A stretch of DNA of 35,995 nucleotides from Candidatus Parcubacteria bacterium (lineage in GTDB: Bacteria > Patescibacteriota > Patescibacteriia > UBA1558 > GWA2-36-10), in contig PKTI01000049.1 of the NCBI GenBank assembly GCA_002869235.1, positions 1,937-37,931 of the forward strand, written 5' to 3'. The notes below the pieces were generated by a model that had not been told where the DNA came from, made no database searches, and saw only the letters and a program-made list of their open reading frames with translations. Each line of letters starts with the position of its first letter. Positions within the stretch are counted from its first letter, which is position 1. Position numbers and translations under genes: made by a program. Positions 2,019-22,038 of the stretch are shown here, piece by piece.

Positions 2019-5000
2019 TTACTTAGAGTAGCTTATCTCTTGTGATTTGGCCTTACTTCTTTTGAGTATTCCTTTTCCTTCAAACTTCAAAAACATCATT
2101 GGTATAACAAACAACTGTAATATAGTAGCAAAAGCTAAACCAAACATAATAGATATAGACATTCCCATCCAAAATTCATCAGCAATAGCTAGCGGCACAA
2201 CACCAAATATAGTGGTAATTGATGTAAGTAATATTGGTTGCAAACGAGTATCTCCAGCATCAGCAATAGCTTCGGCAGCCAACATTCCTTTTTCTTCTAT
2301 ATTACGTTTGGTTTTATCCAAAAGCACTATAGCATCATTGACCACAATACCAGCTAGAGATATCAATCCCAAAAATACTGGGAAACTAAATGGTAAGCTG
2401 AATATAAGCATACCTATAACTACACCAATAAGCATAAGCGGTAAAGTGCCCAAAACTATAATTGGACGGATAAATGAATCAAATTGCAATACTAAAATAA
2501 TCAATATCAAGAGTACCGCTACTATCATAGCGCTCCATAGTTCAGAAAAAGATTGCTCTATATCCTCTACCTCACCACCAAAACTTACTTCATATCCTTG
2601 AGGTATACCTTTTTCTTCCAAAATCTTTTCTATTTCGGTAGTTACTGCTGCTGCGGTATAACCTTCTTCTAAGTCAGCAGTCACGGAAATTGTTCTTTCA
2701 AAGTCTCTGTGCCTGATAGAAGCCAAGGCTGGCTCTAGAGAGAAATCAGCCAAAGAAGAAAGTTTTACTTCCTGGCCCATATTATTGACTATAGAAATAT
2801 TTTTTATTTCCTCAACAGAAGAAATGCTATCTTTGTCCAACTTCACCACAACATCTATATCCTCACCACCTACAGAAACTTCAGTAGCCTTTACACCAAA
2901 GATAGCTGTTCTCAAAACACTAGAAACATCTCCTACACCAAGGCCAGCTTTAGCTACAGCCTCTTTGTCTAATCTAAACGTAAGATCAGCTGGAGAAACA
3001 GCTTGATTGCTTTCTATATTTATTGGACCATCCATCTCTTTGAGTATTTCTTCCAATTGATTTGCAATTTGATCCAAAACTACTAAATCATCACCAGATA
3101 TACGACCTTCCACTGGAGCACCAGTTGGAGGTCCAGCAGTAAGCTCTTTTATGACAATTTCACCTTCATTTATGGTTTTCAATTCTTCTCTTAAATCTTC
3201 GACTACTTGATAACTCTTTTTATCTCTATATTCTTCATCTACAAGATTGACGCTGATACTACCCAAATGTTCACTGCTACTACCAGCATCAAAAGAACCG
3301 ACGCTAGATGATTGTCCTATAGTAGTAACAAAGTTTTTTACATATGGATTTTCATATAATTTATTTTCCACTATATTGGCTACTTTTTCGGTTTCTGTCA
3401 GTTCTGTACCATTTGGCATTTTGACATCTATATAAACAAACTCCGAGTCAATACTAGGAAACAACTCAACCGGTACAATACCGCCAATCAACAATCCCAA
3501 GGAAGTAAAAAACAAGAGTGTCAAAGCAACGGTCATCTTAATCTTGTGTTTTCTGTCCTTTAAGAATTTTACTATAAACTCTCTGTATTTCTTACGCAAT
3601 GAATTGGTTACATATTTTTCCAAAAGACTTTCTTTTTTTTCTTTGCTCAGTTTGCTATTTTTCAAAAACATACCAGCAAATGATGGTACCAATACCAAAG
3701 AAACAAACAAAGATGCAGTCAAAACTATAGCAATAGTTATAGGAAATATTTCCAAATATTCACCCAAAATACCACTTACCAAAAGCATTGGGAAAAAGGC
3801 TGATATAGTAGTAAGCATTCCAGCAGTAAGTGGCTTGCTGTAATTTGCTACAGAAAGCAAAGCCGCCTGAACAGAAGAATAACCTTCTCTCATGTTGTGA
3901 AATATACCTTCCAATATAATAATAAAGGAATCAACCAATAGACCCAAAGATAATACCAAAGCATAAAGAGTCATGCTATTTAGGGTATAACCATAAAAAT
4001 ACAAAACTATAAAAGTAATCAAAAATGTAACTGGAATAGAAAACAAAGCCAAGATAGCTTCCTTGAGACTCAAAGCCACAAACATTATCAAGAAAATAAG
4101 CAGTGTTGCTTGTAGACCACTATTGGTCATAGTCTTGAGATCTTCACGTATAAAACTAGAATAATCATTATTGATTTCTACTTTGACATTTGGCGGGATA
4201 GTTCCCCTGTCTTGTAGATCTGTCATTTTTTCTTTGGCAGAATCTACAATGTTCAAAATATTACCACCAGTTTTTTTGAAAATCTGAAGAGAAATTGTTT
4301 TTTGAGCCTCTTGGCCATCAACAGAAAGTTTGGATATAACTTTATGTTCAGTAAATTCCTCTTTGACATCAGCTACATCTTCCAAAAATATAGGACGATT
4401 GTCATCCTGAGATACAACTACTTTTTTCAAATCTTCTATAGACTCAAATTTGGCAACTGTACGCAAATTATAATTTATATTATCAACAGTGATATCTCCC
4501 AAGGGCATATCCATATTACTAGCTGCTATAGAACCAACTATCTGAGAAAGGGATATATTGAGCCTAGAAATAGCTGCTTTGTTGATAACTACAGAATACT
4601 CTCTGTCTCTAACACCCAAAAGAGGTGCTTTGGAAACACCAGAAATTCCTTCCATTTCATCTTGAACTATTTCTCCCAATTGCTTTAGTTGGTTTTCTGT
4701 CAGATCACCAGCCAAAGAAAAAGTAATAATAGGATAATCATTGGCTCTAATCTGAGTAACTACTGGATCATTAGCATCTCCAGGCAAACCAACTACATCG
4801 CTTACTTTTTCTCTTAACTCCTGGATGCTATCATCCAAATTGGCTTCTGCCTCAAACTCTACCACGATAGAAGAAATACTATTTCTAGAAGTAGAAGTAA
4901 TCAACTTGACATTGTCCAATTCTTCTAATTTGGATTCTATCTCATCAGTTACCAAAGACTCTATGTCCGAAGGACTAGCCCCAGAATAAACAGTACTGAC

Positions 5001-19552: not shown

Positions 19553-20215
19553 ATGGATCGCAATCCGCAGAGCTATCGTCAGGACGAGATGAAGGTCATC
19601 TTCGGAGTGTTCAACTTCGAGGGACAGCAGGGGCCCGAGGCCTTCCTCGGCAAGGCCATCAACGGCCTGCCCGGCATGTCCATCCGTCCCGCCAACGACT
19701 CCCCCATCAACATCGACTTCGGCTACCAGGCCGTCAGCATGGCTATCCGGCCGGAGTGGACCCGCATCTACGCGCGGGCCATCACCGACATGGCCTACAT
19801 CAAGGCCGTCATCACCGCTCTCCAGCGGCAGCAGGAGATGATCCAGCAGGAGAAGGCCGATCCGGTCCCGGCGATGATGAACGCCGCCAGGATCCTGCCG
19901 ATCCTGGACTTCCGGTGGAACATCAAGGGCGGCCACATGACCGTCAACGCCAACTGGGGCGCCGGTCTGCGCGACAGCCAGGGTCACCTGAGCAACGGCA
20001 TGCCGGTCTTCGCCCACAAGGACGACCCCGTCAAGACGGCGGGCTTCCACCTGGTCGAGATCGACATCGCGCCCAGCATGGGCTACCTGTTCGCGAGGCC
20101 CTGCCGCAACCAGCGCCTGCTGAGCGTGGCCATCGACAACCTGAGCGACCAGCTCGGACGCGTCGTCCAGGCCGGACTGGAGCAGCCCTCCAACGACCAG
20201 GCCGCCGAGGCCTGA
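19553..20215 (+). CDS. GC-rich orphan protein, 220 aa, probably acquired
   Basis: I do not recognise this family. Composition is the striking feature: most third positions are G or C (codons such as GAC, GTC, ATC, GGC, CTG, GCC), while every flanking gene is AT-rich. Because of that bias other frames and the reverse strand are also open, but this frame has the ATG, a well-placed SD (GGAGG, spacer 7 nt) and a protein-like composition. No signal peptide or TM helix. It starts MDRNPQSYRQDEMKVIFGVF, has a helical mid-part ending in QRQQEMIQQEKADP (about 90-104), then beta-like stretches (LDFRWNIKGGHMTVNANW), and no Cys until residue 183 or so. Complete unit: promoter, leader, gene, terminator. 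A cytosolic protein of foreign origin is the most I can infer. Confidence 0.75.
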   Translation: MDRNPQSYRQDEMKVIFGVFNFEGQQGPEAFLGKAINGLPGMSIRPANDSPINIDFGYQAVSMAIRPEWTRIYARAITDMAYIKAVITALQRQQEMIQQEKADPVPAMMNAARILPILDFRWNIKGGHMTVNANWGAGLRDSQGHLSNGMPVFAHKDDPVKTAGFHLVEIDIAPSMGYLFARPCRNQRLLSVAIDNLSDQLGRVVQAGLEQPSNDQAAEA

Positions 20216-20233
20216 CCCTCCTTGAACCACTGA

Positions 20234-20287
20234 CTATCCTTTTTGGATAGCACCACCCCCGGACCACCAGGCCCGGGGGATTTTTTT
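20234..20287 (+). terminator. Double hairpin terminator of the GC-rich gene
   Basis: First hairpin CTATCC-ttttt-GGATAG (20234-20250), then CCCCCGG (20256-20262) with CCGGGGG (20273-20279) followed by A and seven T. Confidence 0.88.
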
Positions 20288-20294
20288 ATCCAAC

Positions 20295-20322
20295 AAAAAA
20301 AGACCTATCAAGATGATAAGTC
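20295..20322 (-). terminator. Intrinsic terminator of tRNA-Glu
   Basis: Minus strand: GACTTATCA, TCT loop, TGATAGGTC (20302-20322), then seven T (plus-strand A-run 20295-20301), 5 nt past the tRNA CCA. Confidence 0.85.
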
Positions 20323-20327
20323 ACTTT

Positions 20328-20402
20328 TGGTGACCCTACGGGGAATCGAACCCCGGTTACCAGGATGAGAACCTGGTGTCCTAACCACTAGACGATAGGG
20401 CC
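20328..20402 (-). tRNA. tRNA-Glu (CTC), CCA encoded
   Basis: 75 nt on minus: acceptor GGCCCTA/TAGGGTC (one G-T pair), D-arm GTC/GAC, anticodon stem CCAGG/CCTGG with loop TTCTCAT (anticodon CTC), T-arm CGGGG-TTCGATT-CCCCG, discriminator A, CCA. Its first 23 nt are repeated about 280 bp upstream, beyond the GIY-YIG gene. Confidence 0.96.
20380..20402 (-). repeat. Direct repeat copy 1 (5' 23 nt of tRNA-Glu)
   Basis: Plus strand CCTAACCA (20380-20387) plus CTAGACGATAGGGCC (20388-20402), inside the intact tRNA. The same 23 nt occur as copy 2 at 20662-20722, split by a palindrome. Similarity continues past it: ATGAT beside TTGAT. Confidence 0.9.
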
Positions 20403-20642
20403 ATGATTAAATAAATATTTTAATTTTTTTCTACCAACACAAGATTTCCAATATTTTTCTCTTATTCTGGCTTCTCTTATATTATCAATATTTTCTATAA
20501 TAAAACATCTAAATTTACCAAAATATTTTGTTGATTTAACGTGCTGATCTTTATGCTTTTTAATTCTTTCCCTTATATCATTTGTAAAACCAATATAAGT
20601 CTTATCCCCTGTTTCGGAAATAAGTAAATAAATACTATCCAT
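20388..20642 (-). CDS. GIY-YIG nuclease, ending inside tRNA-Glu
   Basis: 84-aa single-domain GIY-YIG (URI-type) nuclease. It has SIYLL and TYIGFT as the GIY and YIG strands (about residues 3-7 and 14-19), an Arg/His helix NDIRERIKKH with the catalytic-type Arg, and the Glu-bearing helix NIREARIREKYWKS. ATG 20642 gives the normal family start; a longer frame to 20696 would run into a palindrome. The last four codons (GPIV) and the TAG stop lie within the first 15 nt of mature tRNA-Glu, so RNase P processing would strip the stop codon from the mRNA. The gene is bounded by direct repeats of the tRNA 5' end, suggesting a small mobile element. There is no evidence for an intron. Confidence 0.85.
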   Translation of the reverse strand: MDSIYLLISETGDKTYIGFTNDIRERIKKHKDQHVKSTKYFGKFRCFIIENIDNIREARIREKYWKSCVGRKKLKYLFNHGPIV

Positions 20643-20661
20643 AATCACTTTTCTTCTTTTA

Positions 20662-20722
20662 CCTAACCACCCGCCTCGACTCGCGAAGCTTGTCAACGCG
20701 AGGCGGGCTAGACGATAGGGCC
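20662..20722 (-). repeat. Direct repeat copy 2 (split tRNA-Glu 5' fragment)
   Basis: CCTAACCA (20662-20669), a 38-bp palindrome, then CTAGACGATAGGGCC (20708-20722). The two blocks rejoin to exactly the 23 nt of copy 1. As a tRNA it is only a 5' fragment covering the acceptor strand and part of the D-arm. Confidence 0.88.
20670..20707. repeat. 38-bp palindromic insertion in the tRNA-Glu fragment
   Basis: CCCGCCTCG (20670-20678) pairs perfectly with CGAGGCGGG (20699-20707) around a 20-nt core; an alternative register pairs CTCGCG with CGCGAG. It is far more GC-rich than its surroundings and interrupts copy 2 without visible target duplication, as a repeated palindromic element would. Confidence 0.75.
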
Positions 20723-20769
20723 TTGATAAACGTATATATTTCTACCAAATTTTTGGCTCTTTGTCTAGC

Positions 20770-22038
20770 CTACTTGGATACTGGCCCAACCAACAAATCA
20801 TCAGCCAACCAAGGTTTGGCCATTATTTCATAAACCACCTGCTCCATTTTTGCTCCTCTAGAACCTTTGATCAATACAATATCGTCTGATTTTAATCTAC
20901 CTTGCAAAAATACACCTGCTTCCATGGTATAAGGAAAATGGTATATCTTGTCCTCGCTCATACCAGCCTCCTTAGCTCCTCTGGCAATATCACGAGACCT
21001 TTCCCCTACTACAAACAAGTATTCTATACCTAACTCAAACAGCTTTTTACCTACGGCCCTATGAGCTGTTTCTGAAACTTTACCCAATTCAAGCATATCT
21101 CCAAAAACAGCAATACGTCTTCCCTTTGTAGGTATTTGTGCCAAAATCTCCAAAGCAGCCTTGGAAGACTGTGGAGAAGAATTATAAGTATCGTCAATTA
21201 TATAACTACCTTTTACGCCCAAAATAAGATTTGTCCTGCCTCTAGCAGTTCTATATTTTGCCAAAGCTTCTCCTACATCAACTAAGTTCATGCCCATAGA
21301 CAAAGCAACTGCAGCGGCCGTGGCAGCAGCTTGAGCGTGTTGCCAGCCCAAAACAGTAGGCAAAAACATTGGTACCTCTGCACCATTGTAATGCAATTTG
21401 AAGCTAGTGCCATACTCACCACCTCTTTGAGTAATTTTTATATTTGAAATTCTGACTTCAGCATCCTCTGATTGGCCAAAAGTTTTGAGTTTGCTTTTGC
21501 ACTTTTCAATAGCTGGAGCCAAGTTTGTATCATCGCGGTTGATAATAGCCCAATCATCTTTGTCTAGCTTACCCAAAATACTAGTTTTTTCTTTTACTAT
21601 ATTTTCTATACTGCCAAAAAATTCTATATGACTATGACCAATAGCTGTCAAAACTGCAATGTCGGGCTTGGCAATTGAAGTCAAATATTTGATGTCCCCC
21701 CTCTTGTCTGCACCCATTTCCAAAATTAAAACTTCAGGATAGTCCTTGTCTTTGATAAGAAGTATTTTGAAAATATACCAAAATATATATATCCAACGGA
21801 AAATATTGCGTCCACCAGATTTTCTGATACGCAAAACAGTCAAGGGAAGACCTATTTCATTATTATAATTTTTGATATTACGACGAGCTCTATATTTTGA
21901 TTTTAGTACCGAAAAAATAGCTTCTTTGGCAGAAGTCTTGCCCACACTACCAGTAATAGCTACTATTTTTGGCTTATATTTCCTAATGACCAAAATAGCT
22001 AAAACCTTTAAAATTGGGTGTAATATCTTTCTCATCAC
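20770..22038 (-). CDS. murF: UDP-MurNAc-tripeptide--D-Ala-D-Ala ligase (MurF-like)
   Basis: Mur ligase of 422 aa that adds D-Ala-D-Ala to the peptidoglycan precursor in the cytoplasm. It shows the ATP-binding loop TGSVGKTSAKE (about 29-39), LEMGADKRGDI (the MurF-type substrate and metal segment), the central-domain GHSHIEFFGS, DDTYNSSPQS (the conserved DxYN motif) and a C-terminal domain with FGDMLELG and VLIKGSRG. Residues about 1-20 before the P-loop are short and hydrophobic, so the usual MurF N-terminal UDP-binding domain seems trimmed. The start overlaps the stop of the penicillin-binding protein gene by 4 nt (ATGA), a tight operon link. Confidence 0.92.
   Translation of the reverse strand: MMRKILHPILKVLAILVIRKYKPKIVAITGSVGKTSAKEAIFSVLKSKYRARRNIKNYNNEIGLPLTVLRIRKSGGRNIFRWIYIFWYIFKILLIKDKDYPEVLILEMGADKRGDIKYLTSIAKPDIAVLTAIGHSHIEFFGSIENIVKEKTSILGKLDKDDWAIINRDDTNLAPAIEKCKSKLKTFGQSEDAEVRISNIKITQRGGEYGTSFKLHYNGAEVPMFLPTVLGWQHAQAAATAAAVALSMGMNLVDVGEALAKYRTARGRTNLILGVKGSYIIDDTYNSSPQSSKAALEILAQIPTKGRRIAVFGDMLELGKVSETAHRAVGKKLFELGIEYLFVVGERSRDIARGAKEAGMSEDKIYHFPYTMEAGVFLQGRLKSDDIVLIKGSRGAKMEQVVYEIMAKPWLADDLLVGPVSK

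Follow-up and report, generated by a model that had tools for sequence, protein, structure and literature searches.

How does a tRNA gene come to be preceded by a copy of its own 5′ end, and what is a nuclease gene doing between the two copies? This question is raised by a tRNA-Glu locus in the window, as we call the whole stretch of 35,995 nucleotides that was analysed. The original prediction proposed a minimal mobile element, lacking integrase, transposase and intron, that is aimed at the 5′ part of a tRNA gene and reconstitutes this part on insertion. We find this proposal largely right. The locus very probably holds a selfish mobile element of ~320 bp, whose sole gene encodes a free-standing single-domain GIY-YIG endonuclease and which inserts into tRNA genes and restores them, apparently by intron-less homing.

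The intact, restored tRNA-Glu gene (anticodon CTC) lies on the minus strand at 20328..20402 (ARAGORN; Rfam tRNA, 64.4 bits). Its first 23 nt (20402-20380) recur upstream as first noted, every base being exact. Nt 1-15, the 5′ end of the original gene, stand at 20722-20708 and nt 16-23 at 20669-20662, also on the minus strand. This duplication is real, but its first description left out a perfect-ended 38-nt palindrome, CCCGCCTCG...CGAGGCGGG (20670..20707), that splits the repeat between nt 15 and 16. By chance, about 1e-6 exact 15-nt matches would be expected within 500 bp (500 x 2 / 4^15). Read along the minus strand, the order is relic nt 1-15, palindrome, relic nt 16-23, a leader (20643..20661) with a purine-rich ribosome-binding-like stretch, AAGAAGAAAAG, the GIY-YIG gene and the intact tRNA-Glu. 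The leaders of other tRNA-linked GIY genes resemble this one. The GIY-YIG gene (20388..20642, minus strand; 84 aa) starts with ATG and ends with TAG, and its stop codon (20388-20390) lies inside the intact tRNA-Glu as tRNA nt 13-15.

Counted from relic nt 1 to the base preceding nt 1 of the intact tRNA, the inserted unit spans 320 bp (20403..20722, minus strand). Because of the repeat, the exact cut can be placed anywhere within tRNA nt 1-15. The content of the unit was confirmed as first noted, the only gene between the tRNA-Glu copies being that of the single-domain GIY-YIG protein (PF01541, E=9e-14), which is also the sole ORF. A group I or group II intron with a homing endonuclease was rejected, as no intron family matched at E<=1 in 20200-20900 (Rfam).

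Throughout the family, and also outside it, tRNA-Glu stands next after murF, and the empty tRNA-Glu sites that the original prediction proposed to look for were found in the relatives. The murF-to-tRNA gap is 367 bp in the window versus 28-52 bp in the congener G001 (L009) and seven other relatives (L012-L016, L018, L020), most of which have a promoter-like block immediately ahead of the tRNA. The window has this block right in front of the relic, which begins 47 nt after the murF stop. As the block directly precedes the relic and the gap is larger, the relic stands where the original tRNA stood, with 320 bp added. The 46-nt gap of the empty sites (TGGACA...TTAGTAATAT in L009) could be aligned by eye to 20723..20769 of the minus strand (TAGACA...TAGAAATAT). 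From this alignment, we infer that 20723..20769 is the putative old tRNA-Glu promoter, now driving relic, GIY gene and tRNA.

The window species has a filled tRNA-Glu(CTC) and an empty tRNA-Glu(TTC) site (L062). The congener G001 is its reciprocal, with CTC empty (L009) and TTC filled (L158). The CTC and TTC elements belong to one GIY clade with full support and carry an identical palindrome, but nt 6 of each relic agrees with the local tRNA. Orthologues of the element occur in G022, again adjoining murF, and in G028. That close relatives differ in having or lacking the gene at a fixed site is as expected of a free-standing homing endonuclease gene. At two loci (L031 and L159, in G022 and G035), an intact tRNA-Glu is flanked by a 5′ relic and by a 3′ relic whose acceptor differs, apparently through insertion of a whole foreign tRNA into a resident one; some elements may thus bring an entire replacement tRNA.

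A search for other tRNAs with adjacent GIY-YIG genes and repeated 5′ ends, likewise proposed beforehand, was successful in the same genome and in the family. Four of the six non-UvrC GIY-YIG genes of the host genome lie at tRNA genes (Glu, Ser, His and Thr-type), and in the Thr-type case the gene runs into the tRNA at the contig end. Surveying targeted stretches of the family, we collected 82 distinct GIY genes. Wherever a downstream tRNA lay within 350 nt, it was on the same strand (37/37), and relics of the same tRNA precede many of the surveyed genes (Ser, Glu, Tyr, Asn, Lys, Gln, Phe, Trp and Arg). Members of a GIY clade share their target tRNA or else target tRNAs whose D-arms are alike. 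Contrary to an earlier supposition, not every single-domain GIY gene is tRNA-linked: one large clade in these genomes is not.

Beyond the order, a genome scan gave 80 named loci, including some in Komeilibacteria, Moranbacteria, many cultured Flavobacteriaceae, WOR-3 and Planctomycetota. The scan used a conserved peptide pattern from the Glu-type alignment A2, since a profile of 13 diverse GIY proteins varied too much for this purpose. A tRNA lies directly 3′ of the gene, always on the same strand, in 58 of the 80 loci, and about 55 of those 58 have a relic of the same tRNA, mostly tRNA-Leu(CAA), before the gene; the pattern biases the set toward the Glu-type subfamily, and these proportions do not estimate all GIY-YIG genes. 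The median element length is 328 bp. The patescibacterial data come from metagenome assemblies; the flavobacterial loci, some of them from isolate genomes, give the same picture. Together with the empty sites, recurrence at other tRNAs supports a minimal mobile element that inserts at the tRNA 5′ part and rebuilds the tRNA. Targeting of the 5′ part holds for the window, but 13 further loci show the mirror form, in which intact tRNA, GIY gene, palindrome and 3′ relic follow one another. Similarly, the predicted link between relic and GIY gene recurs, but the palindrome is a constant part of the unit, and relics with palindromes but no GIY gene stand upstream of 21 of 120 other tRNAs. Such a GIY-less relic can reflect a lost gene or another process.

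At the tRNA-Leu loci with an alignable relic, all seven relic acceptor bases match the local tRNA in 22 of 23 cases and six of seven in the other, although tRNA-Leu acceptors vary between species. The relic (23 nt in the window) has kept the sequence of its local tRNA, in tRNA-Leu at nearly every locus, even as the gene diverged, which is unexpected of a dead scar.

Comparing the prs/tRNA-Leu(CAA) locus in 17 genomes of the genus Arenibacter, we could follow gain and loss. The site is empty in L288 and others. In L284, it is filled by exactly +321 bp, and the flank is 95% identical to that of L288. L285 is doubled in tandem (2 x 321 bp, +642 bp), with copies 98.8% identical. Decayed sites with a scar of the gene's last codons are found in L286, L287, L291, L293 and L294, and L290, L292 and L295 were re-invaded atop older remains. 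Read as sequence histories, the compared loci show insertion, tRNA restoration, recurrence, loss and re-insertion. Among six Arenibacter pairs, the GIY gene shows less divergence than prs in four, as much in one and slightly more in another, single values being rough for so short a gene. One pair gave a dS of 0.84 for GIY versus 2.48 for prs, and between L284 and L292 the two synonymous divergences are equal (0.86 and 0.85). The lower divergence of GIY than of prs hints at lateral movement.

Tandem arrays of two or three GIY genes were seen in L103, in L285, where a tRNA relic stands before each GIY copy, and on contig 5 of G053 (82-1008). We read them as repeated insertion or unequal exchange. 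In L207, a tyrosine-recombinase-like integrase gene (3073-4332, recognised by eye) lies just 3′ of a tRNA-Leu that bears a GIY element at its 5′ end.

Using a motif, we found a palindrome in the relic or leader region of 56 of 57 relic loci (looser threshold) versus 2.3% of random windows, the motif having been written after the palindromes were seen. The motif replaced an exact-arm inverted-repeat test with arms of 7, which had failed to pick up the flavobacterial palindrome with its arms of 5. Each GIY clade has its own palindrome type and position, even where the tRNAs differ (Phe in L111 and Lys in L118; Glu CTC and Glu TTC). The position is constant, being GGTAGA^CGCGCT in tRNA-Leu and TAG^TGG in tRNA-Glu, which suggests that it marks a candidate cleavage site of the uninterrupted tRNA gene. 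GGTA^GAGC serves within the D-loop in several tRNAs and close to the 5′ end in tRNA-Met; in at least this case, the position tracks a short sequence and not a tRNA arm.

We asked whether the palindrome is a dispersed repeat that landed in the relics by chance. For the Glu type this was rejected, with exactly one copy each in the window genome (G000), G001 and G022, always at the GIY-linked tRNA-Glu relic. G021 has two copies, both in tRNA relics, and an exact pattern search found none in 32 of the 36 genomes of the order. Most of the Arenibacter genomes searched also contain scattered copies of the CCTGCC..GGCAGG palindrome, few in number and mainly at a distance from tRNAs, and for that type the chance-landing reading may apply. 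In L326, a CCTGCC..GGCAGG palindrome lies inside another palindromic repeat (GTCATTGCGAG..CTCGCAATGAC), as one of several dispersed Arenibacter copies.

Palindromes were also noticed at GIY genes outside tRNAs. In the non-tRNA GIY clade (L001, L071, L119, L129, L130 and relatives), a long palindromic repeat starts within ~15 nt of the GIY stop. The abutting repeats include TGTCATTGCGAG..CTCGCAATGACA and GTCATTCTGGAG..CCAGAATGAC, gene and repeat looking as if they were one unit. In L082, L096 and L102, the GIY gene sits at the palindrome centre (CCCCGTTAGAAATT, gene, AATTTCTAACGGGG).

The 84-aa protein was modelled by AlphaFold as a bare GIY-YIG domain (pLDDT 92.8), and its best PDB matches (Foldseek, weak E-values) are the I-TevI catalytic domain and a UPF0213 protein. 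The catalytic residues Y5, Y16, R26 and E62 as well as H30 are invariant in 46 homologues. The fold and the catalytic Tyr, Tyr, Arg and Glu place the protein in the GIY-YIG superfamily (PF01541). The dN/dS of the gene is 0.27 against the congener and 0.06-0.19 among other pairs (about 0.1), and the gene is under purifying selection. A phage origin of the GIY type of the window was rejected, as no viral contig encodes a relative.

From the arrangement of the parts, GIY-YIG-driven homing appears the most likely route of movement. The nuclease would cut the uninterrupted tRNA gene near the palindrome position, a cleavage that the original prediction had implied and that we too infer, and repair would copy the element in from a donor, guided by the tRNA homology that flanks the break. 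The old gene's outer part stays behind as a palindrome-bearing relic. The element brings a copy of the lost tRNA segment, so that a complete tRNA is re-formed at its other edge. Harm to the host would be avoided because the tRNA is rebuilt. The GIY gene is co-directional with the tRNA, whose sequence may supply its stop codon. Relic, GIY gene and tRNA are probably transcribed together from the old tRNA promoter; RNase P processing of this transcript would then remove the stop codon of the nuclease and could limit its expression. The relic site is interrupted, yet the restored tRNA retains the presumed target sequence, so that classical self-immunity by target disruption does not account for carriers. 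The doubled and re-invaded loci suggest that self-immunity is incomplete. The palindrome-bearing relics without a GIY gene, and relics that keep the tRNA sequence while the gene changes, also count against this reading.

Could the same loci have arisen without such an element? The plainest alternative is an ordinary tandem tRNA duplication, in which one copy decayed and a GIY-YIG gene came to lie between by chance, nothing being mobile. Some relics indeed have no GIY gene, and these genomes often contain clusters of tRNAs. The uninterrupted sites of close relatives with 95%-identical flanks and the exact 321-bp steps nevertheless rule out a non-mobile tandem relic, and the strict strand bias, the reciprocal CTC/TTC pattern and the recurrence at many tRNA types in distant phyla speak against it as well, leaving this alternative hardly any credit. 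Slightly better placed, though still very improbable, is a reading in which filled sites expand and are lost mainly when the 23-nt relic recombines unequally with the intact tRNA, horizontal entry being rare and the nuclease stimulating exchange locally without homing between genomes. The tandem double of L285 and the deletion scars are as unequal exchange would give, and the equal divergences of L284 and L292 fit too; but unequal recombination creates neither the first insertion nor the move from tRNA-Glu(CTC) to tRNA-Glu(TTC), and the GIY gene is less diverged than prs in 4/6 pairs.

The palindrome itself might instead be what moves or recombines, a different enzyme inserting such small repeats into tRNA genes while the GIY-YIG gene is only a passenger or a resolver of hairpins. 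We consider this unlikely, albeit the strongest of the three. It draws on the palindrome-bearing relics without a GIY gene, on the dispersed CCTGCC..GGCAGG copies and on the likeness of single-domain GIY-YIG folds to the structure-specific SLX1 as well as to I-TevI. It is opposed by the Glu-type palindrome, which has one copy per genome and is always with the gene, by the agreement of palindrome and GIY clade across tRNAs, by the purifying selection and by 321-bp steps that include the gene. A wider view, which we hold as a tentative possibility, is that single-domain GIY-YIG proteins mark a class of mobile elements of its own, with palindromic ends. Here, the nuclease would act on a hairpin or cruciform of palindrome and tRNA arm, and insertion would not be by classical double-strand-break homing. 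The tRNA form would be one branch, others residing at other palindromes (TGTCATTGCGAG-type ends, CCCCGTTAGAAATT/AATTTCTAACGGGG centres), and solo palindromes would be non-autonomous derivatives.

Keeping the homing element as the preferred reading, we compared it with known systems. By analogy, its closest precedent is the fungal mitochondrial mORFs, intron-less endonuclease ORFs in genes (Allomyces atp6; Glomus atp6, atp9, cox2 and nad3), which bring along a copy of the end of their target gene; this copy takes over from the native end, of which a relic is left; the Glomus atp9 mORF is GIY-YIG (PMC3630166). On architecture alone, the tRNA element shares the carried target end and the native end as relic. 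It differs in its bacterial hosts, its tRNA targets, its bare GIY-YIG domain of 80-100 aa, its use of either gene end, its constant palindrome and its size of about 320 bp instead of about 1 kb. The Seg family of T4-like phages, e.g., SegB in the T4/T6 tRNA region, consists of free-standing GIY-YIG homing endonucleases, likewise intron-less genes adjoining tRNA genes, and Seg promotes inheritance of its own region (PMC2988022, PMC13096335). Seg genes, to our knowledge, lie between genes, have no target-gene relic, restored tRNA or palindrome, and encode an extra DNA-binding part. CPR bacteria, to which the host of the window also belongs, are known to have GIY-YIG ORFs within a structural RNA gene; these are insertion sequences of rRNA genes outside known introns, described as sparse in a paper that does not mention tRNA (PMC11270868). 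Those insertions interrupt the rRNA, whereas the tRNA element rebuilds its RNA gene.

REP/REPIN sequences are short palindromes tied to a single-protein mobiliser, the RAYT (Y1 HUH) transposase (PMC3116915, PMC2817692). The tRNA element differs from them in its GIY-YIG enzyme, in a palindrome inside a tRNA relic and in the restored target; an assignment to RAYT/REPIN was rejected, as the unit has no Y1 HUH transposase gene and its palindrome no GTAG tag. Integrase-bearing genomic islands insert in a tRNA gene, and the segment they carry restores its 3′ end. The 320-bp unit, in contrast, mostly restores the 5′ half and has no tyrosine or serine integrase and no transposase gene, as predicted; it is thus neither an integrase or transposase element nor a tRNA-integrating island. 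In the accessible part of a GIY-YIG superfamily survey, no tRNA-adjacent elements were found (PMC1564403), and our literature search, incomplete for subscription papers, returned no description of a tRNA-restoring GIY-YIG element family. By carrying the lost piece along, a selfish gene can reside within an essential gene and need neither splicing nor an integrase. At ~320 bp with one 80-aa gene, the tRNA element would be among the smallest protein-coding mobile elements known to us, overlooked because it resembles a stray GIY-YIG ORF beside a tRNA. Its presence in cultured Flavobacteriaceae makes homing, immunity and the role of the palindrome directly testable, and it would explain part of the tRNA fragments in genome annotations.

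Directly before the tRNA-Glu of the window, a 220-aa ORF (19553-20215, plus strand) with no Pfam match has a GC content of ~62-66% versus ~37% in the surrounding stretch, and it looks recently acquired.
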